Made by a program: the position numbers and the translations under genes. Below the pieces are notes generated by a model, which was not told where the DNA came from, searched no databases, and saw nothing but the letters and a program-made list of their open reading frames with translations. A stretch of 64,000 nt of DNA from Chaenocephalus aceratus (lineage: Eukaryota > Chordata > Actinopteri > Perciformes > Channichthyidae). The first letter of the stretch is position 1. Each line of letters opens with the position of its first letter. Of the stretch, positions 7,482-59,163 are shown in pieces. The DNA lies in contig JAMFTG010000709.1 in assembly GCA_023974075.1 (NCBI GenBank), forward strand, positions 1 through 64,000, in the 5' to 3' direction.

Positions 7482-7483
7482 GA

Positions 7484-24923: not shown

Positions 24924-25404
24924 TTATGATCCCCGTTCAATAGTTTAAATTAGGGTTAGGGATACTTTGCACACGTTTTTCACACGCTAGAAGTCTGTGA
25001 GTACTTCGGTTAGCTTTGTCTTGATCCGTAAATGTCATTCGATGCATCGTTTGTCCATTTTAATGGTGTAAAAGACTACTGTCTGCACGAAATCGGAAAC
25101 CAGAAGTCGGTTTTTGAAAGGACTCAGAAGAAAAAACGGCTGCCTCACTTCATGGAGGAATGTCTCCCCGCTCCATGTGCACTCTGGCCCCGGTACATGT
25201 GTTGCCTGGAGACCCCCAGTATGGTTTCTTCAAAAACTTTAAGTTTTGAACTGGTCTCTGGAGGAATGTGAGGAAAGTGGAGTTGTCAGGGGACTCTACC
25301 CGCATATGAGGCACTATTTTCGGATACATTTCATCAATTTTCACCCCTTCCTCTGGTTCTTCCAAAAGTTAACATACTTTTTCTGACTCTAGAGGAATGT
25401 AAGG
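24924..25404 (+). repeat. YR-satellite segment, truncated monomers
   Basis: Contains a tgcacgaaatcgg block (25084), a ctggtctctggaggaatgtg unit and one ~129-type monomer. It is cut off at ctctagaggaatgtaagg, where the left end of another YR-satellite element begins (25405). Confidence 0.75.
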
Positions 25405-25530
25405 CAAATGTCAGCCTTATGGACAGAGGTACCGTGGGACTTGCCCTTCAAATGTACGCGTGTCCGCTCAATGGAAATGCGATGTCAACTTCCGATGTCA
25501 AGTCCCTGCCAGCGGCTGGACAAATGTTAC
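25398..25530 (+). repeat. left end of a YR-satellite element, with TGTAAGG flank
   Basis: TGTAAGG (25398-25404) is followed by caaatgtcagcctta... for about 115 bp nearly identical to the start of the insertion at 31666. The sequence to the left is a satellite monomer here and a transposase exon there. Similarity begins exactly at TGTAAGG in both, which marks an element boundary. Confidence 0.8.
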
Positions 25531-25554
25531 CAGTGTTTACCAGTGTTACAAGGG

Positions 25555-26007
25555 GCATGAGAATACCCTCCACTGGAGGGTGGGTGCTGCTGCTGTGAAT
25601 AAGGCCGAATATGGAAGCCGATGAGCGGACGATAAAGCACCGCAAAATACACCACCTTTAAGTGTTGCCAGGGGCACGAGAATACCCTCCACTGGAGGGT
25701 GGGTGCTGCTGCTGTGAATAAGGCCGAATATGGAAGCCGATGAGCGGACGATAAAGCACCGCAAAATACACCACCTTTAAGTGTTGCCAGGGGCACGAGA
25801 ATACCCTCCACTGGAGGGTGGATGCTGCTGCTGTGAATAAGGCCGAATATGGAAGCCGATGAGCGGACGATAAAGCACCGCAAAATACACCTCTTTTCTG
25901 AGTCACCAGGGGCATGCAGTTCTGGAGGGTGTGAACATCTGGGTTTAGTCCGTTGGGGAGTGCTTAATTGCGGGGGTCTGGGGTCTCATGTTATGGAAGT
26001 ATGGATG
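25555..26007 (+). repeat. 119-bp tandem repeat (3 copies) and conserved block
   Basis: Anchors gaataaggccgaatatggaa lie near 25597, 25716 and 25835, an exact 119-bp period, followed by the tctgggtttagtccg block. Reverse-strand frames here are repeat shadows. Confidence 0.92.
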
Positions 26008-26295
26008 ATTTTCGAATTCTCGAAAAACGGCTAAGTGCCAACGGAGGAGGGGGTCAAGTCTTCGGCGCTTCGGGACGAAGCCCCGGAGAATTTTGCACTC
26101 CCCCGTTGCAATTTACAACGGAGAGGGGAAACGAGACCTCCCTTCCCCCGTCCAAAAAATTCATTCATCTTTTCCAAGCTACCATCTGCACGAAATCGGA
26201 AACCCGGTTTTTGAGAGCACAAAAACGAGCTATTTTCACATGATGGGGAAATCATGGAGGAATGTATCCGCCTCATGAGCACTTGGATCGGATAC
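26008..26295 (+). repeat. conserved tgcacgaaatcgg block
   Basis: Same block as 12121-12480 and 57770-58070, leading into the 117-bp array. Confidence 0.85.
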
Positions 26296-27049
26296 AATTG
26301 TTGCCTGGAGGACCCCCAATCATGGTTCTCACAAAACTTTAAGTTTTCAAAACTGGTCTCTGGAGGAATCCAAGGGGAGTTGTCACGGAATAACGATACA
26401 CTATTTTCGGCTAAAATGGTTGCCTGGAGGACCCCCAATCATGGTTCTCACAAAACTTTAAGTTTTCAAACTGGTCTCTGGAGGAATTCAAGGGGAGTTG
26501 TCACGGAATAACGATACACTATTTTCGGCTATAATGGTTGCCTGGAGGAACCCCAATCATGGTTCTCACAAAACGTTAAGTTTTCAAACTGGTCTCTGGA
26601 GGAATTCAAGGGGAGTTGTCATGGAATAACGAGACACTATTTTCGGCTAAAATGGTTGCCTGGAGGACCCAGTCATGGTTCTCACAAAACGTTAAGTTTT
26701 CGAACTGGTCTCTGGAGGAATTCAAGGGGAGTTGTCACGGAATAACGATACACTATTTTCGGCTAAAATGGTTGCCTGGAGGACCCCAGTCATGGTTCTC
26801 ACAAAACGTTAAGTTTTCGAACTGGTCTCTGGAGGAATTCAAGGGGAGTTGTCACGGAATAACGAGACACTATTTTCGGCTAAAAATGGTTGCCTGGAAG
26901 ACCCCAGTCATGGTTCTCACAAAACGTTAAGTTTTCGAACTGGTTCTCTGGAGGAATTCAAGGGGAGTTGTCACGGAATAACGAGACACTATTTTTGGCT
27001 AAAATGGTTGCCTGGAGGACCCCAGTCATGGTTCTCACAAAACGTTAAG
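26296..27049 (+). repeat. 117-bp tandem array, ~6.4 copies
   Basis: Unit: tgcctggaggacccc, atggttctcacaaaac, gaactggtctctggagga, gttgtcacggaataacga, cactattttcggct. Period 117 bp (39 codons), which keeps frames open by chance. The array ends at gttaagggcgttctcccc. A longer sister array is at 58071-59163. Confidence 0.93.
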
Positions 27050-27440
27050 GGCGTTCTCCCCGGCAACCCGCCAGCAGATGAAAACACCCACCCCTCCGCC
27101 TCTCCACCTCTTCAGAGGAACGAGGGAACCGCGCGGGGGGGTCTGCTGGAGGCTACTGCCGGGTGCTCCGTCCTGCAGCTTCACCGGGACCCGGCTCGAA
27201 CACTCGGAGCTCTGACTCCAGCGCGGTTGTGGCGGCCTCGCCCTGGTCGTCCACCGTGCGCCCTCCGGGTACCTGACTCCCCTGCCTCCTCCGGGGCAGG
27301 TGCGAGGGGTTCAATGCCTCCGTCCCCCTGGGGGACGGAGCGCCCGGAGGGTTACTGTTATCCCCACGTTGTCGTACCCGAAACTGTCGGGTATCCTTTG
27401 GGAGAACCAGACTCTGGAGGAACGTGAGGGGAGTTGTCAG
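27050..27440 (+). repeat. GC-rich unit upstream of YR copy B
   Basis: One copy of the ~250-bp GC-rich unit (ccagcagatgaaaacaccc, ctggaggctactgccgggtg, actccagcgcgg). It is tandemly amplified before copy C (37339-38290) and single before copy D. Confidence 0.85.
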
Positions 27441-27773
27441 GGGACTCTACCCGCCTTATGGAACACTATTTTCGGATACTTTTTTTTTACTTTCATGCAT
27501 CTTTCCATGGATGAATTATTGTATTTATTTTTAACTTTTTGGTCAATTTCATCCAGTTTTGGCCCCCGCCTTGCCTGGATGATAAGACCAAGAGATGGCA
27601 GGGATCTCTGCCCGCCTAACGAGTGCCTAAATGGGACACCGCACGATGATGCAAATGAAAACAAACACTGATTTGAAAATAAGCTGAGTGCATCTTTCTT
27701 GAGTCTTTTCACGCTTCCTTCTTTTTCACCCACGATTCTATACCTTCTACTGGTGACATTTCCCGGTACCGAA

Positions 27774-29651
27774 ATGCTCAAGAATACAGGTCGGATGGCG
27801 GTCCGTTGTCCGATCTGTAATAGTTCCTACCGCGCCCTGAGCAAGCACCTGCAGAGGCACCATGGTGTGCGTAACTTGGTTGAAAGAAAAATTCTGCTGT
27901 TGTTGGCCAACGGACGGACCAACATTAGGCTCCATCCCTGTACCATTGCAGGATGCGAATACCGTGGCACAAGGCTGGATCGCCACTTGGCCAGAGACCA
28001 TGTTGAGCTGGCCCGGGAGGAACTACATGTGGTTCAAAATAAACTGAAAATGACAGTGGCAAAGAAGGAGCATTATGAACTCCGAATGACAAACCCCACG
28101 ATAGGAATGATTACCGCTTGGGCTGTTGATATGGTGGAAGACGAAGATGTACTGTCACAACCTCCACCCTTGTCCCCGGTGAATGAATGTGACAACCCGG
28201 ACTGTAAGGACTGGAGGATGGAGGCAAACACAGTGAGGGCTCAGCGGGACAGATATACTGCTGAGGTGAAATCCCTGCGCTGCAAGTTGCAGCAGAGGAT
28301 AAAACACAAGCGACAAAGGATGGATCAGCGGGCCGGGGACATGCCCGTGTTCGATGGGGAGGAACGAGAGCGGGTCATTCTAAAGAAACGACCCCGAACA
28401 GAGTCGACACCAACGAGGCTGTCCAAGTCGAAAGGTCCCTCCTGCAGCAAGTCTCCCATTCCCGCCTGCAGCAAGTCCCCACTGGCTCTCACACACATTC
28501 ATCCAGCTCCTCAGAACCTGCATCCATGCATACCGAGGCCTCGTCAACCTCCCCTCCCATACATTCCCCCTGGTTCCGCGGCAGGGGCCGGGGAAATATA
28601 ATGCGGGACATCACATTCCCACGGATCATGGGTAAGTGTGTTGAATATGTAACAAATGCAGTTTCTGTAACACACCATGTGTTGTCATTAAAGTACTGTT
28701 TTATATTTCACAGAGGAGTATCTGCAAGGATACCGGGAGCATTATGTAGGTATCGACCCACCAGTGAGGCTCCAAGAAAACACAGTCTCCAAACTAAGCA
28801 GAGTGAAGTCGTTCCTAAGTTTCATGGCTCACGGTTTCAATCGCCTGTCTGACTGGCTCTTTTTGAGGGATCTCAAGAGGATACGCGGGTGGTCCCGGAG
28901 CCTGATAAAGTCAAGCCTTCAGGTCACGACCTCCGATTTCTATATCAAAAATATCACCGTAGAAGAATTTAGATGGATGAAGAGGTGGCTGGAAATCAAG
29001 GGTACGCTGACCTGCACCCAGAGCCGCTACTTCCTATACACAGCGGGGAAGAACCCGTCCAGGAACCTTGCCTACTCCCTGAGGTTGGCATGGGCTGATG
29101 TGGGGCTACACGGTCCCATTAACTTCACCGACCTCCGCACAGTCCACGCCGATAATGTGAAGAGGTTTCAAGACAAAGGCAACCGCCAAAGAGTGAGTGA
29201 TTTCATGTGTCACAACACTGCAACTGCAGACAAATTTTACGCGAATAATCCTTCTTTGAAGGAGGCTGCGGACATTCGGCTGCTCTTCACAGAGTCACTG
29301 CAAGCAGCAGCGGCGGCATCGACAGCAGCAGCAGTGGGAAATGAAGACACTTTGGCGGGTATTGACATCGACAGTGACAGCTCTGGAGAGGAGCACAGCC
29401 CCGCTCCCTACCAAGACTCCCTACCAAGACTCAGCGATGCCGAGACGTCAGATGAAGAATTCTCCAAAAATGTCAACGCTTGGAGAGCGAAGAGGGACCA
29501 GTCACTGGCCGAACACAGCCCCTCAGACATGGGTGAAGAGAGGGTGCCATACTCTGCACCGACTTCAGCCACTGTTGCCAGTGATCAACTTGTAAATATG
29601 CAATGTTTTGTTGTACTCAGTCCCCTTGTAAATACTTTATATCCTGTGTGA
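27774..29651 (+). pseudogene. zinc-finger tyrosine recombinase, copy B (broken)
   Basis: The start ATG (27774) and exon 1 match copy C: two zinc-finger-like Cys/His clusters, a coiled middle and a basic Ser/Pro tail. A one-base loss in a C-run near 28480 shifts the frame. Intron 1 is kept (GT at 28632, AG before 28714). Exon 2 is fused straight into exon 3 near 28956 (...IKNI|TVEEF...). About 600 bp is lost, including the box I Arg, intron 2 and the catalytic Lys. The remaining C-terminus retains DLRT, MCHNTATADKFYA and the acidic tail. Not functional. Confidence 0.85.
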
Positions 29652-30013
29652 ATGTATTTATTACTGTAAATAAAGTTTGTTAAAATTACTTACTTTGTCT
29701 TCTGTTTTTAAAGCCCAATATGGGTTTTTTCCCTTTAATATCCCCAGGGGCACGATATTCTGGTTCTGGTGGTAGCATGGAGGTGTTTAGTCCGAGTGAG
29801 GAGTGCTCAAGTGTGGGATGATTTTTAAGGTAGAAGAGGGTAAAAAAAGTTAAAGTGTGAACCTCCAGCAGGGCAGGTGGTGCTGTGAAGAAGGCCGAAT
29901 ATGGATGCCGATGGGCGGACGATAGAGCACCGCAAAATACACCCCCCTTTAAGGTTCCCAGGGGCACGAGTTTCTTGAGGGTGTGATCATCTGGGTTTAG
30001 TCCGTGGGGGAGT
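29652..30013 (+). repeat. 3' region of YR unit B, cut by DNA transposon
   Basis: Polyadenylation signal AATAAA near 29669, then the tttagtccgagtgaggagtg and cgccgaat/gcggacgatagagcacc blocks. The host reads ...gtccgtgggggagt and resumes at gtgcttaagttcggg at 56382, which equals the uninterrupted version at 62650-62675. Confidence 0.9.
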
Positions 30014-31617: not shown

Positions 31618-31665
31618 ATGGCTTCTTATTGGTCTAAAAGACGTAGAGTCATCAGAACTGTAAGG
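31618..31665 (+). pseudogene. transposase first 16 codons, severed
   Basis: ATG at 31618 encodes MASYWSKRRRVIRTVR, then the frame runs into the YR-satellite insertion. Coding resumes at 42967 with GAC ATG GAG. Deleting 31666-42966 rejoins the exon in frame (R-T-V-R-D-M-E), so these codons and the frame at 42967-45057 were one gene. Confidence 0.82.
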
Positions 31666-31779
31666 CAAATGTCAGCCTTAGAGACGGAGGTACCGTGGAA
31701 CTTGCCCTTCAGATGTACGCATGTCCGCTCAATGGAAATGCGATGTCAACCTCCGATGTCAAGTACCTGTCAGCGACTG

Positions 31780-32100
31780 GACCGACTATGGGTGCCGATG
31801 GGCGGACGATAAAGCACCGCAAAATACACCCCCTTCAAGTGTTGCCAGGGGCACGAGAATACCCTCCATGGAGGGTGGGTGCTGCTGCTGTGAAAGAGGC
31901 CGACTATGGGTGCCGATGAGCGGACGATAAAGAACCACAAAATACACCTCTTTTCTGACTCACCAGGGGCATTAAGTTCTGGAGGGTGTGAACATCTGGG
32001 TTTAGTCCGTTGGGGAGTGCTTAATTCCGGGGTTCGGGGGTCTCATGTTATGGAAGTATGGATGATTCTCGAAAAACGGCTAAGTGCCAACGGGGGAGGG
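31780..32100 (+). repeat. 119/120-type unit and conserved block (copy 1)
   Basis: About one and a half 119-type units (gcggacgataaagcaccg) followed by the tctgggtttagtccg block. From acacctcttttctgactcac (31946) onward the sequence is duplicated at 34967. Confidence 0.88.
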
Positions 32101-33716
32101 TGAAAGTCCTGTATACCCTGAGTAATCTTCCCCGGCTTTCAGACACTTATTCCTGGGTAAAAAAGTCACCCTGCTCGGGTCGTCAAATGTGAATGAAATG
32201 GACAGATTCCTGTACATTTCAATCACTTTTGATGGGAGTCGTGAGGTGTGTTTGAAAGGGCCATATCTTCCTTAAATTCACATCAATCATACCCAGCTTT
32301 CACACACACTAATTGCTGGGTAATAAAGCCATGTGTACCCTGCATTTAAAGTAATCTTACCCAGCTTTCAGACACTAATTCCTGGGTAACAAAGTCACCC
32401 TGGACCGGTCATCAAATGTGATTGAAATGGACAGATTCCTGTACATTTCATGCATTTTTAATGGGGTCGTCGAATGTGGATGAAATGGACAGATTCCTGT
32501 ACATTTCATGCATTTTTAATGGGAGTCATCAGGTGTGGATGAAATGGCCATATCTTGCTTAAATTCACATCAAACTTACCCAGCTTTCACACACTAATTG
32601 CTGGGTAATAGAGCCATGTGTACCCTGCATTTAAAGTAATCTTACCCAGCTTTCAGACACTAATTCCTGGGTAACAAAGTCACCCTGGACCGGTCATCAA
32701 ATGTGATTGAAATGGACAGATTCCTGTACATTTCATGCATTTTTAATGGGGTCGTCGAATGTGGATGAAATGGACAGATTCCTGTACATTTCATGCATTT
32801 TTAATGGGAGTCATCAGGTGTGGATGAAATGGCCATATCTTGCATAAATTCACATCAAACTTACCCAGCTTTCACACACTAATTGCTGGGTAATAGAGCC
32901 ATGTGTACCCTGCATTTAAAGTAATCTTACCCAGCTTTCAGACACTAATTCCTGGGTAACAAAGTCACCCTGGACCGGTCATCAAATGTGATTGAAATGG
33001 ACAGATTCCTGTACATTTCATGCATTTTTAATGGGGTCGTCGAATGTGGATGAAATGGACAGATTCCTGTACATTTCATGCATTTTTAATGGGAGTCATC
33101 AGGTGTGGATGAAATGGCCATATCTTGCTTAAATTCACATCAAACTTACCCAGCTTTCACACAGATTCCTGTACATTTCATGCATTTTTAATGGGAGTCA
33201 TCAGGTGTGGATGAAATGGCCATATCTTGCTTAAATTCACATCAAACTTACCCAGCTTTCACACACTAATTGCTGGGTAATAGAGCCATGTGTACCCTGC
33301 ATTTAAAGTAATCTTACCCAGCTTCAGACACTAATTCCTGGGTAACAAAGTCACCCTGGACCGGTCATCAAATGTGATTGAAATGGACAGATTCCTGTAC
33401 ATTTCATGCATTTTTAATGGGAGTCATCAGGTGTGGATGAAATGGCCATATCTTGCTTAAATTCACATCAAACTTACCCAGCTTTCACACACTAATTGCT
33501 GGGTAATAGAGCCATGTGTACCCTGCATTTAAAGTAATCTTACCCAGCTTTCAGACACTAATTCCTGGGTAACAAAGTCACCCTGGACCGGTCATCAAAT
33601 GTGATTGAAATGGACAGATTCCTGTACATTTCATGCATTTTTAATGGGGTCGTCGAATGTGGATGAAATGGACAGATTCCTGTACATTTCATGCATTTTT
33701 AATGGGGGTCATCAGG
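32101..33716 (+). repeat. satellite array 1 (mixed 58/~286-bp units)
   Basis: Built of acccagctttcacacac, taattSctgggtaa, cctggaccggtcatcaaatg and ggacagattcctgtacattt modules. Longer units of about 286 bp repeat (anchors near 32577 and 32863). Inner 58-bp units (ggggtcgtcgaatgtggatg...) appear singly or doubled. The array stops abruptly at catcaggtgtg|acgaagcccc (33716). Confidence 0.95.
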
Positions 33717-34400
33717 TGTGACGAAGCCCCGGAGACTTTTCCACTCCCCCGTTGCAATTTACAACGGAGAGGGGAAACCAGAGCTCCCCTCCTCCGTCCA
33801 AAAAATTCATTCATCTTTTCCAAGCTACCATCTGCACGAAATCGGAAACCCGGTTTTTGAGAGCACTTAGAAAAAAACGAGCTATTTTCACATGATGGGG
33901 AAATCATGGAGGAATGTATCCGCCTCAGGAGCACTTTGGATCGGATGAAATTGTTGCCAAGAGGACCCCCAATCCTGGTTCTCACAAAACTTTAAGTTTT
34001 CAAACTGGTGTCTGGAGGAAGGTAGGGGAGTTGTCAGGGGACTCTACCCGCCTTATGGAACACTATTTTGGGATACATTTTATCCATTTTCACCCTTTTC
34101 TATGGTTCTTCCAAAAAGTTAACTTATACTTTTTCTGACTCTGGAGGAAGGTAGGGGAGTTGTCAGGGGACTCTACCCGCCTTATGGAACACTATTTTCG
34201 GATACAATTTATCCATTTTCACCCTTTTCTATGGTTCTTCCAAAAAGTTAACTTATACTTTTTCTGACTCTGGAGGAAGGTAGGGGAGTTGTCAGGGGAC
34301 TCTACCCGCCTTATGGAACACTATTTTCGGATACAATTTATCCATTTTCACCCTTTTCTATGGTTCTTCCAAAAAGTTAACTTATACTTTTTCTGACTCT
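33717..34400 (+). repeat. tgcacgaaatcgg block plus three ~128-bp repeats
   Basis: Same succession as 36655-37340, without the 200 bp that separates satellite from block there. Repeats carry gttgtcaggggactctaccc and ccaaaaagttaacttatac. Confidence 0.92.
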
Positions 34401-34962
34401 GGCCAGCAGATGAAAACACCCGCCTCTCCACCCCTTCCGAGGGACGAGGGAACCGTGCGGGGGTCTGCTGGAGGCTACTGCCGGGTGCTCCGTCCTGCGC
34501 CTCACCGGGACCCTGACTCCAGCGCGGTATGGCGGCCTCGCCCTGGCCGTCCACCCTCTGGGTACCTGACTCCCCTGCCTCCTCCGGGGGCAGGTGAGAG
34601 GGGTTCAATGCCTCCCCGGAGGATACTGTTCCCCCGGCAACCCGCCAGCAGATGAAAACACCCGCCTCTCCACCCCTTCCGAGGGACGAGGGAACCGCGC
34701 GGGGGTCTGCTGGAGGCTACTGCCGGGTGCTCCGTCCTGCGCCTCACCGGGACCCTGACTCCAGCGCGGTGTGGCGGCCTCGCCCTGGCCGTCCACCGTG
34801 CGCCCTCTGGGTACCTGACTCCCCTGACTCCCCTGCCTCCTCCGGGAGCAGGTGAGAGGGGTTCAATGCCTCCCCGGAGGATGCTGTTACCCCGGCAACC
34901 CGCCAGCAGATGGAAACACCCGCCTCTCCACCTCTTCCGAGGGAACCGCGCGGGGGTCTGCT
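34401..34962 (+). repeat. GC-rich units, ~2.3 copies, truncated
   Basis: ccagcagatgaaaacaccc begins copies near 34404, 34645 and 34903. The last breaks off at gggggtctgct|acatacac, where the second large duplicate starts. Confidence 0.92.
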
Positions 34963-37338
34963 ACATACACCTCTTTTCTGACTCACCAGGGGCATTAAGT
35001 TCTGGAGGGTGTGAACATCTGGGTTTAGTCCGTTGGGGAGTGCTTAATTCCGGGGTTCGGGGGTCTCATGTTATGGAAGTATGGATGATTCTCGAAAAAC
35101 GGCTAAGTGCCAACGGGGGAGGGTGAAAGTCCTGTATACCCTGAGTAATCTTCCCCGGCTTTCAGACACTTATTCCTGGGTAAAAAAGTCACCCTGCTCG
35201 GGTCGTCAAATGTGAATGAAATGGACAGATTCCTGTACATTTCAATCACTTTTGATGGGAGTCGTGAGGTGTGTTTGAAAGGGCCATATCTTCCTTAAAT
35301 TCACATCAATCATACCCAGCTTTCACACACACTAATTGCTGGGTAATAAAGCCATGTGTACCCTGCATTTAAAGTAATCTTACCCAGCTTTCAGACACTA
35401 ATTCCTGGGTAACAAAGTCACCCTGGACCGGTCATCAAATGTGATTGAAATGGACAGATTCCTGTACATTTCATGCATTTTTAATGGGGTCGTCGAATGT
35501 GGATGAAATGGACAGATTCCTGTACATTTCATGCATTTTTAATGGGAGTCATCAGGTGTGGATGAAATGGCCATATCTTGCTTAAATTCACATCAAACTT
35601 ACCCAGCTTTCACACACTAATTGCTGGGTAATAGAGCCATGTGTACCCTGCATTTAAAGTAATCTTACCCAGCTTTCAGACACTAATTCCTGGGTAACAA
35701 AGTCACCCTGGACCGGTCATCAAATGTGATTGAAATGGACAGATTCCTGTACATTTCATGCATTTTTAATGGGAGTCATCAGGTGTGGATGAAATGGCCA
35801 TATCTTGCTTAAATTCACATCAAACTTACCCAGCTTTCACACACTAATTGCTGGGTAATAGAGCCATGTGTACCCTGCATTTAAAGTAATCTTACCCAGC
35901 TTTCAGACACTAATTCCTGGGTAACAAAGTCACCCTGGACCGGTCATCAAATGTGATTGAAATGGACAGATTCCTGTACATTTCATGCATTTTTAATGGG
36001 AGTCATCAGGTGTGGATGAAATGGCCATATCTTGCTTAAATTCACATCAAACTTACCCAGCTTTCACACACTAATTGCTGGGTAATAGAGCCATGTGTAC
36101 CCTGCATTTAAAGTAATCTTACCCAGCTTTCAGACACTAATTCCTGGGTAACAAAATCACCCTGGACCGGTCATCAAATGTGATTGAAATGGACAGATTC
36201 CTGTACATTTCATGCATTTTTAATGGGGTCGTCGAATGTGGATGAAATGGACAGATTCCTGTACATTTCATGCATTTTTAATGGACATATTCCTGTACAT
36301 TTCATGCATTTTTAATGGGGTCGTTGAATGTGATTGAAATGGACAGATTCCTGTACATTTCATGCATTTTTAATGGGGTCGTCGAATGTGATTGAAATGG
36401 ACAGATTCCTGTACATTTCATGCATTTTTAATGGGAGTCGTCAGTATATGGAGCTTAACCCATAATTCCCGGAGGTTCCAGGCCGAATTTGGAAGCTCAT
36501 AGGCGGCCTGCCATGCGTCCCCACCCGTGGAAAGCAAAAAAAAAGTAAAGAAAACGGTCAATTATATGTTAAAATAATCAAAAATGAAGTTTTTGAAAAT
36601 TCTGTAAAAACGGCTAAGTGCCAACGGGGGAGGGGGTCAAGTCTTCGGCGCTTCGGGACGAAGCCCCGGAGACTTTTCCACTCCCCCGTTGCAATTTACA
36701 ACGGAGAGGGGAAACCAGAGCTCCCCTCCTCCGTCCAAAAAATTCATTCATCTTTTCCAAGCTACCATCTGCACGAAATCGGAAACCCGGTTTTTGAGAG
36801 CACTTAGAAAAAAACGAGCTATTTTCACATGATGGGGAAATCATGGAGGAATGTATCCGCCTCAGGAGCACTTTGGATCGGATGAAATTGTTGCCAAGAG
36901 GACCCCCAATCCTGGTTCTCACAAAACTTTAAGTTTTCAAACTGGTGTCTGGAGGAAGGTAGGGGAGTTGTCAGGGGACTCTACCCGCCTTATGGAACAC
37001 TATTTTGGGATACATTTTATCCATTTTCACCCTTTTCTATGGTTCTTCCAAAAAGTTAACTTATACTTTTTCTGACTCTGGAGGAAGGTAGGGGAGTTGT
37101 CAGGGGACTCTACCCGCCTTATGGAACACTATTTTCGGATACAATTTATCCATTTTCACCCTTTTCTATGGTTCTTCCAAAAAGTTAACTTATACTTTTT
37201 CTGACTCTGGAGGAAGGTAGGGGAGTTGTCAGGGGACTCTACCCGCCTTATGGAACACTATTTTCGGATACAATTGATCCATTTTCACCCTTTTCTATGG
37301 TTCTTCCAAAAGTTAACTTATACTTTTTCTGACTCTGG
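34963..37338 (+). repeat. second large duplicate: block, satellite, ~128-bp repeats
   Basis: The conserved block (34967-35125), satellite (35126-36440), the ccataattcccggaggttcc linker and gcctgccatgcgtcccc segment (36440-36600), the tgcacgaaatcgg block and three ~128-bp repeats (36940-37338) follow in order. It matches 31946-34400 almost base for base outside copy-number differences, so element C carries an internal ~3-kb tandem duplication. Confidence 0.92.
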
Positions 37339-38290
37339 CCAGCAGATGAAAACACCCGCCTCTCCACCCCTTCCGAGGGACGAGGGAACCGTGCGGGGGT
37401 CTGCTGGAGGCTACTGCCGGGTGCTCCGTCCTGCGCCTCACCGGGACCCTGACTCCAGCGCGGTGTGGCGGCCTCGCCCTGGCCGTCCACCCTCTGGGTA
37501 CCTGACTCCCCTGCCTCCTCCGGGGCAGGTGAGAGGGGTTCAATGCCTCCCCGGAGGATACTGTTACCCCGGCAACCCGCCAGCAGATGAAAACACCCGC
37601 CTCTCCACCCTTCCGAGGGACGAGGGAACCGCGCGGGGGTCTGCTGGAGGCTACTGCCGGGTGCTCCGTCCTGCGCCTCACCGGGACCCTGACTCCAGCG
37701 CGGTGTGGCGGCCTCGCCCTGGCCGTCCACCGTGCGCCCTCTGGGTACCTGACTCCCCTGACTCCCCTGCCTCCTCCGGGAGCAGGTGAGAGGGGTTCAA
37801 TGCCTCCCCGGAGGATGCTGTTACCCCGGCAACCCGCCAGCAGATGGAAACACCCGCCTCTCCACCTCTTCCGAGGGAACCGCGCGGGGGTCTGCTGGAG
37901 GCTACTGCCGGGTGCTCCGTCCTGCGCCTCACCGGGACCCTGACTCCAGCGCGGTGTGGCGGCCTCGCCCTGGCCGTCCACCGTGCGCCCTCTGGGTACC
38001 TGACTCCCCTGACTCCCCTGCCTCCTCCGGGAGCAGGTGAGAGGGGTTCAATGCCTCCCCGGAGGATGCTGTTACCCCGGCAACCCGCCAGCAGATGGAA
38101 AACACCCGCCTCTCCACCTCTTCCGAGGGAACCGCGCGGGGGTCTGCTGGAGGCTACTGCCGGGTGCTTCGTCCTGCGCCTCACCGGGACCCTGACTCCA
38201 GCGCGGTGTGGCGGCCTCGCCCTGGCCGTCCACCGTGCGCCCTCTGGGTACCTGACTCCCCTGCCTCCTCCGGGGGCAGGTGAGAGGGGT
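37339..38290 (+). repeat. GC-rich tandem array, 4 copies (241-257 bp)
   Basis: Copies start at about 37339, 37580, 37837 and 38088 with ccagcagatgRaaacaccc. Frames are open on both strands because of high GC and unit similarity; no protein family is recognised and indels change the frame between units. Confidence 0.93.
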
Positions 38291-38560
38291 TCAATGCCCT
38301 ACGCCCGGAGGGTACTGTTATCCCCACGTTGTCGTACCCGAAACTGTCGGGTATCCTTTGGGAGAACCAGACTCTGGAGGAACGTGAGGGGAGATTACAG
38401 GGATCTCTGCCCGCCTAACGAGTGCCTAAATGGGACACCGCACCATGATGCAAATGAAAACAAACACCGATTTGAAAATAAGCTGAGTGCATCTTTCGTG
38501 AGTCTTTTCACGCTTCCTTCTTTTTTACCCACGATTCTGGTGACATTTCCCGGTACCGAA

Positions 38561-40935
38561 ATGCTCAAGAATACAGGTCGGATGGCGGTCCGTTGTCCGA
38601 TCTGTAATAGTTCCTACCGTGCCCTGAGCAAGCACCTGCAGAGGCGCCATGGTGTGCGTAACTTGGTTGAAAGAAAAATTCTGCTGTTGTTGGCCAACGG
38701 ACGGACCAACATTAGGCTCCATCCCTGTACCATTCTGGGATGCGAGTACCGGGGCACAAGGCTGGATCGCCACTTGGCCAGAGACCATGTTGAGCTGGCC
38801 CGGGAGGAACTACATGTGGTTCGAAATAAACTGAAAATGACAGTGGCCAAGAAGGAGCTTTATGAACTCTGAATGACAAACCCCACCATAGAAATGATTA
38901 CCGCTTGGGCTGTTGACATGGTGGCAGACGACGATATACTGTCACAACCTCCACCCTTGTCCCCGGTGAATGAATGTGACAACTCGGACTGCAAAGAATG
39001 GAGGCTGGAGGCAAACGCAGTGAGGGCTCAGCGGGACATATATGCTGCTGAGGTGAAATCCCTGCACTGCAAGTTGCAGCAGAGGATAAAGCACAAGCGA
39101 CAGAGGATGGATCAGCGGGCCGGGGACATGCCCGCGTTCGATGGGGAGGAACGAGAGCGGGTCATTCTGAAGAAACGACCCCGAACAGAGTCGACACCAA
39201 CGAGGCTGTCCAAGTCGAAAGGTCCCTCCTGCAGCAAGTCTCCCATTCCCGCCTGCAGCGAGTCCCCCACTGGCTCTCACACACATTCATCCAGCTCCTC
39301 AGAGCCTGCATCCATGCATACCGAGGCCTCGTCAACCTCCCCTCCCATCCATTCCCCCTGGTTCCGGGGCAGGGGCCGGGGAAATATAATGCGGGACATC
39401 ACATTCCCACGGGTCATGGGTAAGTGTGTTGGCTATGTGACACATGCAGTTTCTGTAACACACGATGTGTTGTCATTAAAGTACTGTTTATATTTCACAG
39501 AGGAGTATCTTCAAGGATACCGGGAGCATTATGCAGGTATCGACCCACCAGTGAGGCTCCAGGAAAACACAGTTTCCAAACTGAGCAGAGTGAAGTCGTT
39601 CCTAAGTTTCATGGCTCACGGGTTCAATCGCCTGTCTGACTGGCTCTTTTTGAGGGATCTCAAGAGGATACGTGGGTGGTCCCGGAGCCTGATGAAGTCA
39701 AGCCTTCAGGTCACGACCTCCGACTTCTACATCAAGAATATATCACACTTTCTCAAGTACATGGCCGACACACCATGCAAGGGGAGCAGGCTCAGCCAAA
39801 CCGACATGATTTTAATCAAACGGGAAGTAGTTGCCATCTTGAAGTCCCTGAAGAGAAAAGTACTTATCCACCAGATGCAAGTGAAGCGTGACAAGATGGA
39901 AGGTCTGCCGAGCCACAACGACCTAATGACATGCTTGACTTCGACCACCACTCGCATCCCTCAGCTCCTGGATGTGATGGCCAGCAATCCGACTACCGCA
40001 ACCCGGACCCTGCTCTATGGGTATATGACTCTTCATTGGAGCTGCATTTACGGCCATCGTCCGGGGGTCTACTCCAACATGACCAACTCCGAGGTCCGAA
40101 AGGCGGATACAACTGGCACTGCCTTCGGCTACCTGGTTCATGTGAGTGCTATTAATCAATGCATTTATTCTGGCAGTTATATGCATGATTGACATTGTAT
40201 TGACACTCTCTAACTCTGTCATAACAGGTAAGCAACCACAAGACGGCCAACGCGTTCGGGGAAGCGCAGCTGTACCTCACCGTAGAAGAATTTGGATGGA
40301 TGAAGAGGTGGCTGGAAATCAAGGGTACGCTGACCTGCACCCAGAGCCGTTACTTTCTATACACAGAGGGGAAGAACCCGTTCAGGAAGCTTGCCTACTC
40401 CTTGAGGTTGGCATGGGCTGATGTGGGGCTCCACGGTCCCATTAACTTCACCGACCTCCGCACAGTCCACGCCGATAATGCGAAGAGGTTTCAAGACAAA
40501 GGCAACCGCCAACGAGTGAGTGATTTCATGTGTCACAACACTGCAACTGCGGACAAATTTTACGCGAATAATCCTTCTTTGAAGGAGGCTGCGGACATTC
40601 GGTTGCTCTTCACAGAGTCACTGCAAGCAGCGGCGGCGGCATCGACAGCAGTAGCAGCGGGAAATGAAGACACTTTTGCGGGTATTGACATCGACAGTGA
40701 CATCTCTGGAGAGGAGCACAGCCCGGCTCCCTACCAAGACTCCCTACCAAGACATGTCAACGCTTGGCGAGCGACGAGGGACCAGTCACTGGCCGAACAC
40801 AGCCCCTCAGACATGGGTGAAGAGAGGGTGCCATACTCTGCCCCAACTTCACCCACTTTTGCCAGTGATCAACTTGTAAATATGCAGTGTGTTGTTGTAA
40901 TCAGTCCCCTTGTAAATACTTTATATCCTGTGTGA
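38561..40935 (+). pseudogene. zinc-finger tyrosine recombinase, copy C (one nonsense codon)
   Basis: Best copy of the family; predicted 735 residues from three exons: 38561-39419, 39501-40141, 40228-40935. Introns have GT-AG ends and restore frame. Residues 12-30 form C-x2-C...H-x4-H and 56-76 form C-x4-C...H-x4-H, suggesting two zinc fingers for DNA binding. A charged helix and a basic Ser/Pro region follow. The C-terminal half reads as a tyrosine recombinase: Arg473 in GHRPGVY, Lys505 in NHKTA, Arg578 in TDLRT, His603 in MCHNTATADKFYA and Tyr612 as nucleophile. An acidic tail ends the protein. The only visible break is TGA at 38870-38872 (codon 104), where B and D have CGA. No reverse transcriptase accompanies it, so it resembles Crypton-class recombinases more than DIRS. 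Family name unassigned. Confidence 0.83.
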
Positions 40936-41160
40936 ATGTATTTATTACTGTCAATATTACTGTAAATAAAGTTTGTTAAAATTACTAAGTCTTCTGTTTT
41001 TAAAGCCCACTATGGTTTTTTTTCCTTTAAGATCTCCAGGGGCACGATATTCTGGTTCTGGTGGTAGCATGGAGGTGTTTAGTCCGAGTGAGGAGTGCTC
41101 AAGTGTGGGATGATTTGTAAGGTAGAAGAGGGTAAAAAAAGTTAAAGTGTGAACCTCCAG
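40936..41160 (+). repeat. 3' region of YR copy C
   Basis: AATAAA near 40963, then the tttagtccgagtgaggagtg and cctccagcagggcaggtgg blocks common to units A, B and D. Confidence 0.88.
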
Positions 41161-41955
41161 CAGGGCAGGTGGTGCTGTGAAGAAGGCCGTCTATGGGTGC
41201 CGATGGGCGGACGGTAAAGCACCGCAAAGTAGACCCCCTTTAAGTGTTGCCAGGGGCACGAGAAAAATCCTCCACTGAAGGGTGGGTGGTGCTGCTGTCA
41301 AGAAGGCCGACTATGGGTGCCGATGGGCGGACGGTAAAGCACCGCAAAGTAGACCCCCTTTAAGTGTTGCCAGGGGCACGAGAAAAATCCTCCACTGAAG
41401 GGTGGGTGGTGCTGCTGTCAAGAAGGCCGACTATGGGTGCCGATGGGCGGACGGTAAAGCACCGCAAAGTAGACCCCCTTTAAGTGTTGCCAGGGGCACG
41501 AGAAAAATCCTCCACTGAAGGGTGGGTGGTGCTGCTGTCAAGAAGGCCGACTATGGGTGCCGATGGGCGGACGGTAAAGCACCGCAAAGTAGACCCCCTT
41601 TAAGTGTTGCCAGGGGCACGAGAAAAATCCTCCACTGAAGGGTGGGTGGTGCTGCTGTCAAGAAGGCCGACTATGGGTGCCGATGGGCGGACGGTAAAGC
41701 ACCGCAAAGTAGACCCCCTTTAAGTGTTGCCAGGGGCACGAGAAAAATCCTCCACTGAAGGGTGGGTGGTGCTGCTGTCAAGAAGGCCGACTATGGGTGC
41801 CGATGGGCGGACGGTAAAGCACCGCAAAGTAGACCCCCTTTAAGTGTTGCCAGGGGCACGAGAAAAATCCTCCATGGAGGTTGGGTGCTGCTGCTGTGAA
41901 GAAGGCCGACTATGGGTGCCGATGGGCGGACGATTAAGCACCGCAAAATACACCC
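41161..41955 (+). repeat. 120-bp array, ~6 copies, homogenised
   Basis: Five consecutive copies from 41281 to about 41868 look identical (gctgctgtcaagaaggccga, gcggacggtaaagcaccgc, aagtagaccccctttaagtg). The first and last units differ. Elsewhere the homologous unit is 119 bp and more diverged. Confidence 0.96.
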
Positions 41956-42958
41956 CCCTTTAAGATTCCCAGGGGCACGAGATTCTTGAGGGTGTGATCA
42001 TCTTGGTTTAGTCCGTGGGGGAGTGCTTAAGTTCGGGGGCCCGGGGACCCAAGGTGCGCGAGGTTCTGGAAGTACGCATGTCAGGGAGAGATCCTGGAGC
42101 TCCTTAGTCCGTATTTTGGGGGTCTTGGAGCGGCCACAGAGAGGTGCTTTTCCCCGGGGTATTTCATGGAAGTCTGAAATAACCTGTTTGCTCATGTCAG
42201 GGAGAGATGCTGGGGCTGCTGCGTCCGTGTTTTGGGGGTCTTGGAGCGGCCCCGAATGGACAGAGTCCTGTACATTTCAATCACTTTGTATGGGAGTCGT
42301 GAGGTGTGGATGAAATGGCCATATCTTCCTTAAATTCACATCAAACTTACCCATCTTTCACACACTAATTGCTGGGTAATACAGCCATGTGCACACTGCA
42401 TTTAAAGTAATCTTACCCAGCTTTCAGACACTAATTCCTGGGGAAGAAAGTCACCCTGGACGGGTCATCAAATGTGATTGAAATGGACAGATTCCTGTAC
42501 ATTTCAATCACTTTTGATGGGAGTATTCAGGTGTGGATGAAATGACCATATCTCCCTTAAATTCACATCAAACTTACCCAGCTTTCACACACTAATTCAT
42601 GGGTAATGAAGCCATGTGTACCCTGTGTTTAAAGTAATCTTCCCCGACTTTCAGACACTTATTCCTGGGTAACAAAGTCACCCTGCTCGGGTCGTCAAAT
42701 GTGGATGAAATGTACAGATTCCTGTACATTTCAATCACTTTTGATGGGAGTCGTGAGGTGTGGATGAAATGGCCAGTTGAATCCGATTTTGAGCACTCTT
42801 TTCCCCGCATAAACTAGTCACCGTTAAACACTTATTTTGTTGATGTCTATATAACCGACTTCCCGCTATGCATTGCGGTCGGTTATATGGACCCTGGCAC
42901 TAGGCAGACCGCGGCCGGTAGTAAATGTCCAACCATTGTACCCTCTGGTCCCTAGGGT
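41956..42958 (+). repeat. satellite and right-end region of element C
   Basis: The gcttaagttcgggggcccgg block comes first, then two ggagagatSctgg units. About 550 bp of acccagctttc/ggacagattcc satellite follows (42250-42780). The tail is tgagcactcttttccccgc, a hairpin, gcagaccgcggccggtagt and the junction. Related tails at 56640-56800 and 62930-63090 continue into satellite instead. Confidence 0.85.
42847..42886. promoter_or_regulatory. hairpin near element C right end
   Basis: Arms atataaccgac and gtcggttatat are perfectly complementary around ttcccgctatgcattgcg. The same loop sequence at 56715-56745 and 63000-63030 is flanked by different but still pairing arms (ggactt/aagtcc). It may be a recombinase-binding site (inference). 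Confidence 0.6.
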
Positions 42959-42966
42959 ATGTAAGG

Positions 42967-45057
42967 GACATGGAGAAAGATATCCTTAAGGAATACGAGG
43001 AAACTCTTTATAATAACAAGTCACATTTAGACCCCTGTGTGAATAGAGAACCACCCTTCAGAATCTCACACGTTTCCCAACTAGATACACCACCAGCTTC
43101 CCATGTACACATGGAAAATGATCATACTGATGGTAGTTTAGCTGGAGATGATGAAGTTGAATCAGATCATGTACAAATGGGAAATGATCATACTGATGGT
43201 AGTTTAGCTGGAGATGATGAAGTTGAATCAGATCATGTACAAATGGGAAATGATCATACTGATGGTAGTGTGGCTGGGAATGTTGAATCAGATTCTGACT
43301 CTGACAGCCATGACGAGCATCAGCCTAGTCAGGATCTGCTTATGAGGAGCCTAAGATATTGGGCAACATCCTACTCAATCAGTCTGGTTGCTTTGTCTGC
43401 TCTGCTGTCCATCTTAAAGCTTTTTCACCCTATGCTCCCTAAGGATGGAAGAACTCTGCTTAGAACACAACATGATGTTGCTACCACTCAAATGCAAGGT
43501 GGCGAGTACTACCATTTTGGATTGGTGCAAGGGATACTTTCACGATTGAAATGTTTGAGTTTACCAGTGAGCCTCAGAACTCTTACTTTACAGTTCAACA
43601 TAGATGGTCTCCCTCTCTTTAAGAGTTCAAGACTTCAATTCTGGCCTATACTTGCAATTCTGAAATGTGATTATACTAAGTCCCCATTTATTGTCGGTAT
43701 CTTTTGTGGTTTAAGCAAGCCCAAGTGTGTTGTTGAGTATCTGCAGCAATTTATTAGCGACCTTAAAAATGTACTGGCTAATGGCGTTGTTCATAATGGT
43801 AACCGATTTAAAGTACTGGTTTCCTCATTTGTGTGTGATGCTCCAGCCAGAGCCTACGTTAAGAATATCAAGTCACATAATGGCTATTCAGGGTGCGACA
43901 AGTGTGATCAACATGGTGTGTGGAGGAAGAAAATGACTTATCCTGAAACAAATGTCAGGATCAGGACAGACTCAAGTTATTGTGATATGATTGATGAAGA
44001 ACATCACTTGAAACAGACACTCAGTCCTTTAACAGGGACAGTAAAGATGGTTTCTTCATTCCCAATAGATTATATGCACCTCTGTTGTCTTGGTGTGATG
44101 AGAAAACTGTTGAATATGTGGTTAAAGGGCAATCTAGCCACTAGGCTTCCTTCACAAACTGTTAACAGTATATCAAGCAAACTGCTGGGGTTACATTCCC
44201 ACACTCCTTGTGAATTCAATCGCAAGCCAAGGGGTTTGAATGAGCTAGATCGTTGGAAAGCTACAGAGCTCCGATCCTTCATACTGTACTGGGGCCCTGT
44301 AGTTCTGAAGGATTGCCTTCCCAGTGAGATTTATGACAACTTTATGTTGTTTTCAGTGGCCATGTATTTGTTTTTGTCTCCTGGAATTTCTGGCCAAAAG
44401 GTTGAATTAGCGCATAGATTGATGATTTCCTTCGTGGAACACTTTGGACAGTTGTATGGCAGGGATCAGATTGTGTTCAGTGTACACCAGCTTATACATT
44501 TAGCCAATGAATACAAACAATTTGGACCTTTAGATAATGTTTCAGGATTCCCTTTTGAGAATTATCTTGGCCAAATAAAGCATCTTTTACGCAAGCCACA
44601 CCAACCTCTACAACAGGTGGTCAAAAGGTTGTCAGAACAGCCACGTTTTGAGGTTCCATTACCAACAGATGAACCAGTCTTACAGAAAATCCACACTGAT
44701 GGTCCACTCCCTCAACATTTCGGTGTTGCTGTACAGTACACAAAGGTCTCCAGTAGTCGTTTTACCTTGTCTACAAAGCAGGGGGATAATTGTATTGAGG
44801 TGGGACATAGTATTGCAGTAGTGCAGAATATAGTCCAGGAAGAAGATGAGGTCTATGTGATCTACAAAAGGTTCAGACACCAAGAATCATATTACACTTA
44901 TCCCTGTGAGTCCTCATACATAGGTACATACAAGGTTAGAGAGTTGTGTGACAATATCGGGGTTGGTAAACTTCGATGTATCAAACGTAAATGTGTTCTG
45001 TATCCAGAGTCAGAAGGAAATGGCCTCATAGCTATTCCAATAGCTCATATGCAGTAG
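42967..45057 (+). CDS. TNP2-like transposase, main exon
   Basis: The 697-codon open stretch (an in-frame ATG at 42925 lies in the insertion and is not the native start) encodes a transposase that would cut and paste the element. An acidic region has three copies of a 21-residue repeat with NDHTDGSLAGDDE (43120-43290). After it come FNIDGLPLFKSS, SPFIVGIFCG, SFVCDAPARAYV, a CDKC zinc pair, DYMHLCCLGVMRKL, an HRLMISFVEHFG segment and SVHQLIHLANEYKQFGPL with PFENYLGQIKHL. The last part resembles the DUF4218 region that follows TNP2 in CACTA transposases. Conserved Asp in FNIDG and CDAP and Glu in FENY are candidate catalytic residues. No stop or frameshift is seen after the insertion point; the gene is dead only because its first 16 codons are 11.3 kb away. 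Confidence 0.82.
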   Translation, partial: DMEKDILKEYEETLYNNKSHLDPCVNREPPFRISHVSQLDTPPASHVHMENDHTDGSLAGDDEVESDHVQMGNDHTDGSLAGDDEVESDHVQMGNDHTDGSVAGNVESDSDSDSHDEHQPSQDLLMRSLRYWATSYSISLVALSALLSILKLFHPMLPKDGRTLLRTQHDVATTQMQGGEYYHFGLVQGILSRLKCLSLPVSLRTLTLQFNIDGLPLFKSSRLQFWPILAILKCDYTKSPFIVGIFCGLSKPKCVVEYLQQFISDLKNVLANGVVHNGNRFKVLVSSFVCDAPARAYVKNIKSHNGYSGCDKCDQHGVWRKKMTYPETNVRIRTDSSYCDMIDEEHHLKQTLSPLTGTVKMVSSFPIDYMHLCCLGVMRKLLNMWLKGNLATRLPSQTVNSISSKLLGLHSHTPCEFNRKPRGLNELDRWKATELRSFILYWGPVVLKDCLPSEIYDNFMLFSVAMYLFLSPGISGQKVELAHRLMISFVEHFGQLYGRDQIVFSVHQLIHLANEYKQFGPLDNVSGFPFENYLGQIKHLLRKPHQPLQQVVKRLSEQPRFEVPLPTDEPVLQKIHTDGPLPQHFGVAVQYTKVSSSRFTLSTKQGDNCIEVGHSIAVVQNIVQEEDEVYVIYKRFRHQESYYTYPCESSYIGTYKVRELCDNIGVGKLRCIKRKCVLYPESEGNGLIAIPIAHMQ

Positions 45058-56381: not shown

Positions 56382-56383
56382 GT

Positions 56384-57640
56384 GCTTAAGTTCGGGGGCC
56401 CGGGGACTCAAGGGGCACGATGTTCTGGAAGTACGCATGTCAGGGAGAGATCCTGGAGCTCCTTAGTCCGTGTTTTGGGGGTCTTGGAGCGGCCCCGAAG
56501 AGGTGGCTTTGTCGGTGTACGTAATGGGTAAGAAAGCCACCCTGGACGGGTCGTCAAATGTGGATGAAATGGACAGATTCCTGTACATTTCATGCACTTT
56601 TAATGGGAGGATGAAATGTAAGTGTGAACTAGCCTGTTTAATCCGATTTTGAGCACTCTTTTCCCCGCATAAACTAGTTTAAATCACCGTTAAACACTTA
56701 TTAAAAATGTCTATTTAATGGACTTCCCGCTATGCATTAAAGTCCGTGATCTGTACACACTAACCTGTACACTTGGCAGACCGCGACGGGTAGTTAATGT
56801 CCACACAGTGAACACGCAAGTCCCGAGAGTATTCACAGTAATCTTACCCAGCTTTCACACACTAATTCCTGGGTAAGAAATCCCTGTACATATCCTTGGA
56901 TGAAATGGCCATGTGCACCCCTGTATTCACAGTAATCTTACCCAGCTTTCACACACTAATTCCTGGATAAGAAAGCCCTGTACATATCCCTGGATGAAAT
57001 GGCCATGTGCACCCCTGTATTCACAGTAATCTTACCCAGCTTTCACACACTAATTCCTGGGTAAGAAAGCCCTGTACATATCCCTGGATGAAATGGCCAT
57101 GTGCACCCCTGTATTCACAGTAATCTTACCCAGCTTTCACACACTAATTCCTGGGTAAGAAAGCCCTGTACATATCCCTGGATGAAATGGCCATGTGCAC
57201 CCCTGTATTCACAGTAATCTTACCCAGCTTTCAAACACTAATTCCTGGGTAAGAAGGCCACCCTGGACGGGTCGTCAAATGTGGATGAAATGGACAGATT
57301 CCTGTACATTTCATGCACTTTTAATGGGGTCGTCGAATGTGGATGAAATGGACAGATTCCTGTACATTTCATGCATTTTTAACGGGGTCGTCGAATGTGG
57401 ATGAAATGGACAGATTCCTGTACATTTCATGCACTTTTAACGGGGTCGTCGAATGTGGATGAAATGGACAGATTCCTGTACATTTCATGCACTTTTAATG
57501 GGGTCGTCGAATGTGGATGAAATGGACAGATTCCTGTACATTTCATGCACTTTTAATGGGGTCGTCGAATGTGGATGAAATGGACAGATTCCTGTACATT
57601 TCATGCATTTTTAATGGAAGTCGTCAGTATATGGAGCTTA
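56384..57640 (+). repeat. satellite following unit B (94-bp and 58-bp arrays)
   Basis: After the gcttaagttcgggggcccgg block and the hairpin region comes a 94-bp array (anchors 56848, 56941, 57035, 57129; cccagctttcacacactaat, ccctggatgaaatggcc). It is followed by about six 58-bp units (ggggtcgtcgaatgtggatg, ggacagattcctgtacattt). Confidence 0.95.
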
Positions 57641-58070
57641 ACCCATAATTCCCGGAGGTTCCAGGCCGAATTTGGAAGCTCATAGGCGGCCTGCCATGCG
57701 CCCCCACCCGTGGAAAGCAAAAAAAAGTAAAGAAAACGGTCAATTATATGTTAAAATAATCAAAAATGAAGTTTTTGAAAATTCTCGAAAAACGGCTAAG
57801 TGCCAACGGGGGAGGGGGTCAAGTCTTCGGCGCTTCGGGACGAAGCCCCGGAAACTTTTGCACTCCCCCGTTGCAATTTACAACGGAGAGGGGAAACGAG
57901 ACCTCCCCTCCTCCGTCCAAAAAATTCATTCATCTTTTCCAAGCTACCATCTGCACGAAATCGGAAACCCGGTTTTTGAGAGCACTTAGAAAAAAACGAG
58001 CTATTTTCACATGATGGGGAAATCATGGAGGAATGTATCCGCCTCATGAGCACTTTGGATCGGATACAAT
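57641..58070 (+). repeat. linker and tgcacgaaatcgg block
   Basis: ccataattcccggaggttcc linker and gcctgccatgcgcccccac segment, then the conserved block; same order as 36440-36940. Confidence 0.9.
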
Positions 58071-59163
58071 TGTTGCCTGGAGGACCCCCAATCATGGTTC
58101 TCACAAAACGTTAAGTTTTCAAACTGTTCTCTGGAGGAATTCAAGGGGAGTTGTCACGGAATAACGAGATACTATCTTCGGCTAAAATGTTGCCTGGAGG
58201 ACCCCAGTCATGGTTCTCACAAAACGTTATGTTTTCGAACTGGTCTCTGGAGGAATTCAAGGGGAGTTGTCACGGAATAACGATACACTATTTTCGGCTA
58301 AAATGTTGCCTGGAGGACCCCCAATCATGGTTCTCACAAAACGTTAAGTTTTCAAACTGTTCTCTGGAGGAATTCAAGGGGAGTTGTCACGGAATAACGA
58401 GATACTATTTTCGGCTAAAATGTTGCCTGGAGGACCCCAGTCATGGTTCTAACAAAACGTTACGTTTTCGAACTGGTCTCTGGAGGAATTCAAGGGGAGT
58501 TGTCACGGAATAACGATACACTATTCTCGGCTAAAATGGTTGCCTGGAGGACCCCAGTCATGGTTCTCACAAAACGTTAAGTTTTTCAAACTGTTCTCTG
58601 GAGGAATTCAAGGGGAGTTGTCACGGAATAACGAGATACTATTTTCGGCTAAAATGTTACCTGGAGGACCCCAGTCATGGTTCTCACAAAACGTTACGTT
58701 TTCGAACTGGTCTCTGGAGGAATACAAGGGGAGTTGTCACGGTATAACGAGCCACTATTTTCGGCTAAAATGTTGCCTGGAGGACCCCAGTCATGGTTCT
58801 AACAAAACGTTACGTTTTCTAACTGGTCTCTGGAGGAATTCAAGGGGAGTTGTCACGGAATAACGATACACTATTTTCGGCTAAAATGGTTGCCTGGAGG
58901 ACCCCAGTCATGGTTCTCACAAAACGTTAAGTTTTCAAACTGTTCTCTGGAGGAATTCAAGGGGAGTTGTCACGGAATAACGAGATACTATTTTCGGCTA
59001 AAATGTTGCCTGGAGGACCCCAGTCATGGTTCTCACAAAACGTTACGTTTTCGAACTGGTCTCTGGAGGAATTCAAGGGGAGTTGTCACGGAATAACGAG
59101 CCACTATTTTCGGCTAAAATGGTTGCCTGGAGGACCCCAGTCATGGTTCTCACAAAACGTTAA
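58071..59163 (+). repeat. 117-bp tandem array, ~9.3 copies
   Basis: Same unit as 26296-27049. Two unit subtypes (ttcaaactgttctctgg and ttcgaactggtctctgg) largely alternate, implying amplification as dimers. Confidence 0.94.

Follow-up and report, generated by a model that had tools for sequence, protein, structure and literature searches.

A satellite-carrying element with a tyrosine-recombinase gene in the Chaenocephalus aceratus genome

The split transposase gene and the copies of its insert

The first 64,000 nucleotides of contig JAMFTG010000709.1 of Chaenocephalus aceratus (assembly GCA_023974075.1), referred to here as the window, include a transposase gene that is divided by an 11.3-kb block of DNA. 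This block, element B, carries satellite arrays and a gene for a tyrosine recombinase. The following features define its limits:

31618..45057 (31618-31665 + 42967-45057), plus strand: host transposase gene interrupted by B; open joined frame
31659..31665, plus strand: left core TGTAAGG; sequence and 131 exact genomic left junctions
31666..42959, plus strand: element B, a satellite-carrying tyrosine-recombinase element of 11.3 kb; ends set by empty sites and genomic copies
42780..42959, plus strand: conserved right end with predicted hairpin, terminal letters CCCTAGGGTA; sequence identity and predicted fold
42960..42966, plus strand: right core TGTAAGG; sequence and 53 exact genomic right junctions with TGTAAG

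The host gene opens with an ATG at 31618, runs for 16 codons to 31665 and resumes at 42967-45057. Its flanks, joined by script, form a frame of 712 codons that stays open up to its final stop, and the product matches DUF4218 weakly (E 0.0072, below the Pfam cut-off). Coordinates and joined frame thus confirm what a first-pass annotation, made from the letters alone, had described: a transposase exon split by the block, with TGTAAGG at both junctions and the frame restored upon removal. By itself the heptamer was rejected as proof of insertion. It is common by chance (8 occurrences in the window against 9.4 expected), and the junctions were therefore tested against the whole genome (1.06 Gb in 3,032 contigs, the window being C708:1-64000 on an 83-kb contig).

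When the flanks of B were joined through one core, giving a query of 207 bases, the genome returned 12 matches. Eight extend over all 207 bases at 96-99% identity and one spans 139 bases across the site; the remaining three are the two junctions of B itself and one on contig C1941. The nine uninterrupted host copies carry a single core-like 7-mer, which is TGTAAGG in seven, TGTAACG in one and TGTGAGG in one, and the block is therefore an insertion and not an old intron. Empty sites with a single TGTAAGG had been proposed as a check; run in this genome, it thus gave seven exact cases and two one-base variants. The claim that the block inserted as a unit is borne out by these eight complete and one partial empty sites, along with fixed ends at many loci.

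Copies of the ends are abundant. TGTAAGG followed by the left end has 131 exact genomic matches and the right end followed by TGTAAG has 53, many of them on chromosome-scale contigs, and neither pattern occurs with its parts reversed. The right end of B is 99-100% identical in 40 scored matches (of 545 candidates). Beyond the core the flanks of different copies diverge (26 distinct right and 29 distinct left flanks were read), and B-type ends stand in many unrelated contexts, including a long interspersed nuclear element (LINE) and minisatellites. Eleven end pairs were read on both sides: on C20 and C16 the two flanks come from the same repeat, on C74 the left flank is another element's right end, on C71 the flanks are of different kinds, and in seven pairs continuity could not be judged from the letters. 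The left flank on C1941 is identical to the window over the 560 bases compared; there the element ends about 11.1 kb after its left junction, and a second follows head to tail through one core, the contig stopping inside the recombinase gene of this second copy. The simplest reading is that C1941 represents the second haplotype, or else a duplicate of recent date, and holds two or more element copies.

Several other loci were noted alongside these. Two insertions on C22 (L015/L083 and L016/L082) share the same kind of right flank (GGAAACTTCTG...) and have different left flanks. Two host repeats (L038, L048, L051 and L039, L046, L057) each have the left end at one position in three places, so that either one target was reused or a composite moved whole. 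Finally, units at C22:30660840-30662634 (1.8 kb) and C3:38883464-38884645 (1.2 kb) have both ends and are too short for the recombinase gene, and are therefore likely non-autonomous forms.

Tandem repeats, as found by Tandem Repeats Finder (TRF), make up about half of B (5,732 of 11,308 bases, arrays merged by hand):

32177..33721, plus strand: satellite array, 285-bp period with 58-, 102- and 226-bp sub-periods; TRF
34011..34402, plus strand: 129-bp satellite array; TRF
35200..36442, plus strand: satellite array, 285-, 227- and 58-bp periods; TRF
36948..37338, plus strand: 129-bp satellite array, second block; TRF
37501..38325, plus strand: 251-bp repeat array upstream of the recombinase gene; TRF
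41168..41982, plus strand: 120-bp satellite array; TRF
42255..42775, plus strand: 227-bp satellite array adjoining the right end; TRF, same block beside right ends elsewhere

The same blocks recur beside right and left ends at other loci (eight were compared), which indicates that they travel with the element. The view that the satellites are cargo and not passive repeats holds only in the sense that they sit within the unit that moves.

Core sequence, strand exchange and head-to-tail arrays

Because the flanks read were mostly picked with core-containing queries, their positions 1-6 are partly invariant by construction, and searches with the ends alone served as a check. (The left, right and junction patterns differ in length, so the counts are not strict subsets of one another.) The left end without its core has 201 genomic matches, 70 of them lacking an exact TGTAAGG; the first 20 of these 70 comprise 12 with AGTAAGG, six with TGAATGG in one shared host flank, one with TGTAAAG and one with TTTGTGA. 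The right end without its core has 224 matches. Among 20 lacking TGTAAG, hand-picked from the first part of that list and not in strict order, 16 have the element's internal site next to the right end, three have TGTTAGG and one has TGTGATG. Across the 26 right flanks, position 7 is G in 21, T in four and C in one, position 8 is G in 24 and position 10 is A in 19.

The clearest view of the exchange comes from two insertions in the same LINE site, one on C6 (10.7 kb) and one on C5 (a 43-kb span with several right ends). Their left junctions read CAGA/GTAAGG and their right junctions TGT/TAGG, and a LINE in the window, 63% identical, aligns gap-free to the two halves with two N between them. On C16 the left core has G as its last base and the right core has T, the latter matching the host minisatellite. 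These junction letters place the strand exchange within about GTAAG and not across the whole of TGTAAGG; beyond GTAAG, the target supplies the left bases of the left junction and the right bases of the right junction. For the internal site AGTATGG, the same rule predicts the observed junction of the right end with TGTATGG. Of the proposal that TGTAAGG is the recombination core, then, joining through a core is retained and the core itself is trimmed to about GTAAG.

At 28 genomic places, five of which are on C578, a right end runs through one core straight into a left end. This is the arrangement expected inside a circle, here found in chromosomes. Fixed ends in many copies, empty sites and these head-to-tail junctions together uphold the description of the block as a mobile element. 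The right end is also joined to the internal site:

32055..32061, plus strand: internal core-like site AGTATGG (TTATGGAAGTAAGGCAAATGTC), joined to right ends elsewhere; sequence and 134 junctions

Two forms of this junction occur among the 100 listed of the 134 genomic places, and in 11 of 30 loci it lies 0.8-1.6 kb before another right end; no left partner of the internal site was found among the extracted loci. At L008, L030 and L065 the right end is followed by TGTAAGGGGAG of the approximately 129-bp satellite, a site that fits the element's target. On contig C2 the stretch from 12 to 62 kb holds 17 right ends, whose spacings recur at about 3.4, 2.57, 3.87 and 3.19 kb. In an analysis of 100 of the 224 right ends on 15 contigs of known length, 10 of 46 clusters lie no more than 500 kb from a contig end, where 2.8% would be expected (p ~5e-7), a figure to be read with the possible repeat bias of contig ends in mind.

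The recombinase and the movement of the element

The enzyme that might act on these sites is encoded downstream of the 251-bp array:

38561..40932 (coding 38561-40147, 40225-40932), plus strand: tyrosine-recombinase gene of B, apparently spliced; tblastn of P0002, open reading frames (ORFs), alignment and fold

Matches to the reference recombinase P0002 (annotated, 747 residues) cover residues 1-747 in B and in a neighbouring copy, C, and lack about 385-532 in another neighbour, element A; the gene in B has an in-frame stop at 38870-38872. The closest named proteins belong to Pseudochaenichthys georgianus (88% identical across 97% of the query, and up to 99% across 21%), and Pseudochaenichthys holds a cluster of 71 recombinase sequences (clustering at 90% identity). 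Relatives are fish proteins of 246-962 residues, mostly named "uncharacterized" or "hypothetical" (P0015 and P0016 are unnamed), from notothenioids, Lates, Hoplias, Brachyhypopomus, loaches and a sucker.

Pfam gave weak matches only, both with the window ORF and with 10 family members at E up to 5, and searches of PDB sequences with the window ORF and profile A1 returned chance-level matches only. The N-terminal part has a zinc-finger-like motif, indicated by weak Pfam matches. Where aligned, R489 is kept in 9 of 9 members and K521, R594, H619 and Y628 each in 8 of 8, and the first H of the H-x-x-R motif is replaced by T591 in all eight. A model of moderate quality (mean predicted local distance difference test score 64, mostly 60-90 over residues 300-650) has Cre and Tre as its best PDB structural matches; a second structural comparison matched topoisomerase IB, Xer, Cre and the lambda and Tn1549 integrases. 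Judged by these residues and the predicted fold, the gene of B encodes a tyrosine recombinase. A scan of 11 ORFs of B, which excluded ORFs shorter than 120 residues and two overlapping ones, turned up no other mobility enzyme; one ORF within an array matched DUF2510 and NfeD weakly, below the cut-offs.

We conclude, with a probability of about 0.93, that B belongs to the DNA transposons and is moved by a tyrosine recombinase like the one whose gene it carries. Direct support comes from the fixed ends, both cores, the empty sites, the mixed element and target bases at junctions, the right-core-left junctions, and the recombinase fold and catalytic residues; that the protein of B itself carries out the exchange is what we infer. 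The recombinase would pair both terminal cores and swap strands within about GTAAG, releasing a putative circle with the ends joined through one core. The target of the circle would be a short stretch of genomic DNA similar to (T/A)GTAAG(G)GNA, and the integrated copy would have a core on either side; TGTAAGGGNA is a candidate target-type site for recombination with the right-core-left junction. Head-to-tail arrays could then grow through several integrations into one core or from circles that hold more than one unit, and the satellite arrays inside the unit would be moved along with it.

Other readings of the block must be weighed against this one. GTAAG, within the core, fits the 5' splice-site consensus well, and CCCTAG, close to the right end, is a possible acceptor, as would suit an ordinary transposase intron lost from other copies. 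The eight complete host copies without the block, each with one core-like 7-mer, and the identical ends in many unrelated flanks, LINE and minisatellites included, leave this reading next to no probability; an ancestral intron is rejected on the uninterrupted copies, and the insertion may still be spliced from transcripts. Equally little credence is due to an assembly artefact in which satellite was wrongly joined into the transposase. Satellites do misassemble easily and the window lies on an 83-kb contig, yet the same ends and core are found 131 and 53 times without a mismatch, in many cases on chromosome-scale contigs, and C1941 has the same left junction. A retrotransposon of the DIRS/Ngaro type, copied through RNA and having lost its reverse transcriptase, is improbable. 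DIRS elements likewise use a tyrosine recombinase, and two papers report them in notothenioids (PMC6387122, PMC5941688), but the scanned ORFs of B yielded no reverse transcriptase match, the genomic copies retain apparent introns, which speaks against copying through RNA, and no split direct repeats were found between the terminal 220 bases.

More weight attaches to the idea that the tandem arrays arose from unequal crossing-over and amplification only, without a recombinase. The repeating spacings on C2 are such as later unequal exchange gives, and just two forms of the right-end/internal junction suggest few founding events. Against it, the right-core-left junction is exact at 28 places, and the 43-kb span on C5, with its several right ends, sits cleanly between the halves of one LINE target. 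We regard crossing-over and amplification alone as unlikely, if a serious contender. The exchange rule itself has exceptions. Left ends without TGTAAGG, which the first-pass annotation had itself named as evidence to the contrary, make up 70 of 201 (one of the 20 read, TTTGTGA, has no core at all), and some right ends deviate at position 3 (TGGAAGG, TGATAGG), so that the exchange boundary is not absolute.

Mobilisation by a tyrosine recombinase would also allow a bolder proposal, which we offer tentatively and at somewhat less than even odds, that the element builds satellites by means of its recombinase. The approximately 129-bp satellite of the element holds the target-fitting site noted above, and the internal core-like site is also present. 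Integration into its own arrays, and joining of the right end to the internal site, could yield shorter circles without the left part, and these could seed tandem arrays that grow into satellite blocks, preferentially near chromosome ends.

The surroundings of B record a series of nested insertions:

25398..30013, plus strand: element A, left part, within a satellite monomer; sequence comparison, recombinase without about 385-532 of P0002
56382..56831, plus strand: element A, right part; cut off from the left part by the 26.4-kb transposon carrying B
56832..63083, plus strand: related copy C, with satellites, recombinase at 59862-62299 and a truncated right end

The intervening 30014-56381 is a 26.4-kb transposon whose ends are inverted over 14 bp (CCCAGATAGCAAAA), with what looks like a 2-bp duplication of GT; it is inserted in A and carries the transposase gene that B interrupts. 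The order of insertion was A, then the transposon, then B. The left end had been reported as shared exactly between B and position 25398; in fact 114 of 126 positions are alike. The flank there is indeed unrelated to that of B (19 of 60 upstream bases match) and resembles a monomer of the family's approximately 129-bp satellite. At 56382-63083 the right end of A passes directly into a 94-bp satellite and copy C; the truncated right end of C meets the 94-bp satellite again, an array-like arrangement without canonical cores; no exact left end was found in copy C. An older, diverged relative lies at 11691-16700, with related satellites and recombinase pieces 27-53% identical to P0002. Elsewhere in the window are minus-strand ORFs at 46921-49385, inside the 26.4-kb transposon, that by eye resemble retrovirus envelope and pol pieces, a 1,123-residue open frame (7424-10795, stop to stop) consisting largely of a 60-bp tandem repeat, and a 1,012-residue open frame (19046-22084) that by eye resembles a LINE protein with reverse transcriptase.

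Relation to known mobile elements

Several groups of mobile elements share features with B. Starships are giant fungal elements with gene cargo and a DUF3435 captain; they share with B one tyrosine recombinase, large cargo and short direct repeats, and DUF3435 was without a match in the Pfam scans (including 10 members at E up to 5), which are weak for this recombinase. Ngaro and DIRS elements share the tyrosine recombinase, and their hallmark reverse transcriptase and RNase H were not found in the 11 scanned ORFs. Helitrons and Helentrons, in the passages of PMC12628747 that describe them, contain inner satellite-like repeat arrays and can also form tandem arrays, but their enzyme and ends are unlike those of B; the main text of that paper has no occurrence of Crypton, tyrosine or recombinase.

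By mechanism B is Crypton-like: a recombinase is its one mobility enzyme, terminal inverted repeats are lacking, the core measures 6 bp and the junctions are of the circle type. Passages of PMC3212892 describe Cryptons as having a tyrosine recombinase, no terminal inverted repeats and short direct repeats at the ends that were proposed as recombination substrates in a circle model. In B, a tyrosine recombinase is the sole recognisable mobility enzyme, the terminal 220 bases hold one 8-bp inverted match off the tips and no terminal inverted repeats, and short terminal direct repeats (4-6 bp in Cryptons) are represented by TGTAAG at both ends and one-core empty sites. Of the Crypton R-H-R-Y tetrad, R489, R594, H619 and Y628 are present where the alignment covers them, but T591 stands at the first H of H-x-x-R, and the CryptonF domain GCR1_C did not come up among the Pfam families reported for 10 members (E up to 5), although Pfam barely detects this recombinase. 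Some CryptonV families insert specifically in microsatellites, according to a passage of PMC8869645.

There are also differences. As far as the passages of PMC3212892 go, animal Cryptons had no terminal repeats found, and in 2011 vertebrate Crypton repeat families were recorded only in medaka, with fragments or domesticated genes elsewhere. In B, the core and ends are resolved to the single base, tandem repeats fill about half of the sequence, whole elements form head-to-tail arrays, and the protein has a zinc-finger-like N-terminal part and apparent introns. No satellite-carrying Crypton was found among the papers that the literature searches listed, which lay outside subscription journals and Repbase Reports. 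The nearest case is the oyster satellite CgiSat40, a 673-bp tandem repeat labelled DNA/Crypton in a passage of PMC8268682 that gives the label and no ends or junctions. Within that literature, satellite cargo, whole-element arrays and exact ends in a vertebrate look new for the Crypton class. With readable ends, a core, empty sites, a target rule, circle-type junctions and the 71-sequence recombinase cluster in Pseudochaenichthys, the reaction is open to test. Site-specific recombination would provide a concrete route by which satellite DNA could move and multiply, and the coexistence of single copies and head-to-tail arrays suggests one way in which satellite arrays are spread and built.

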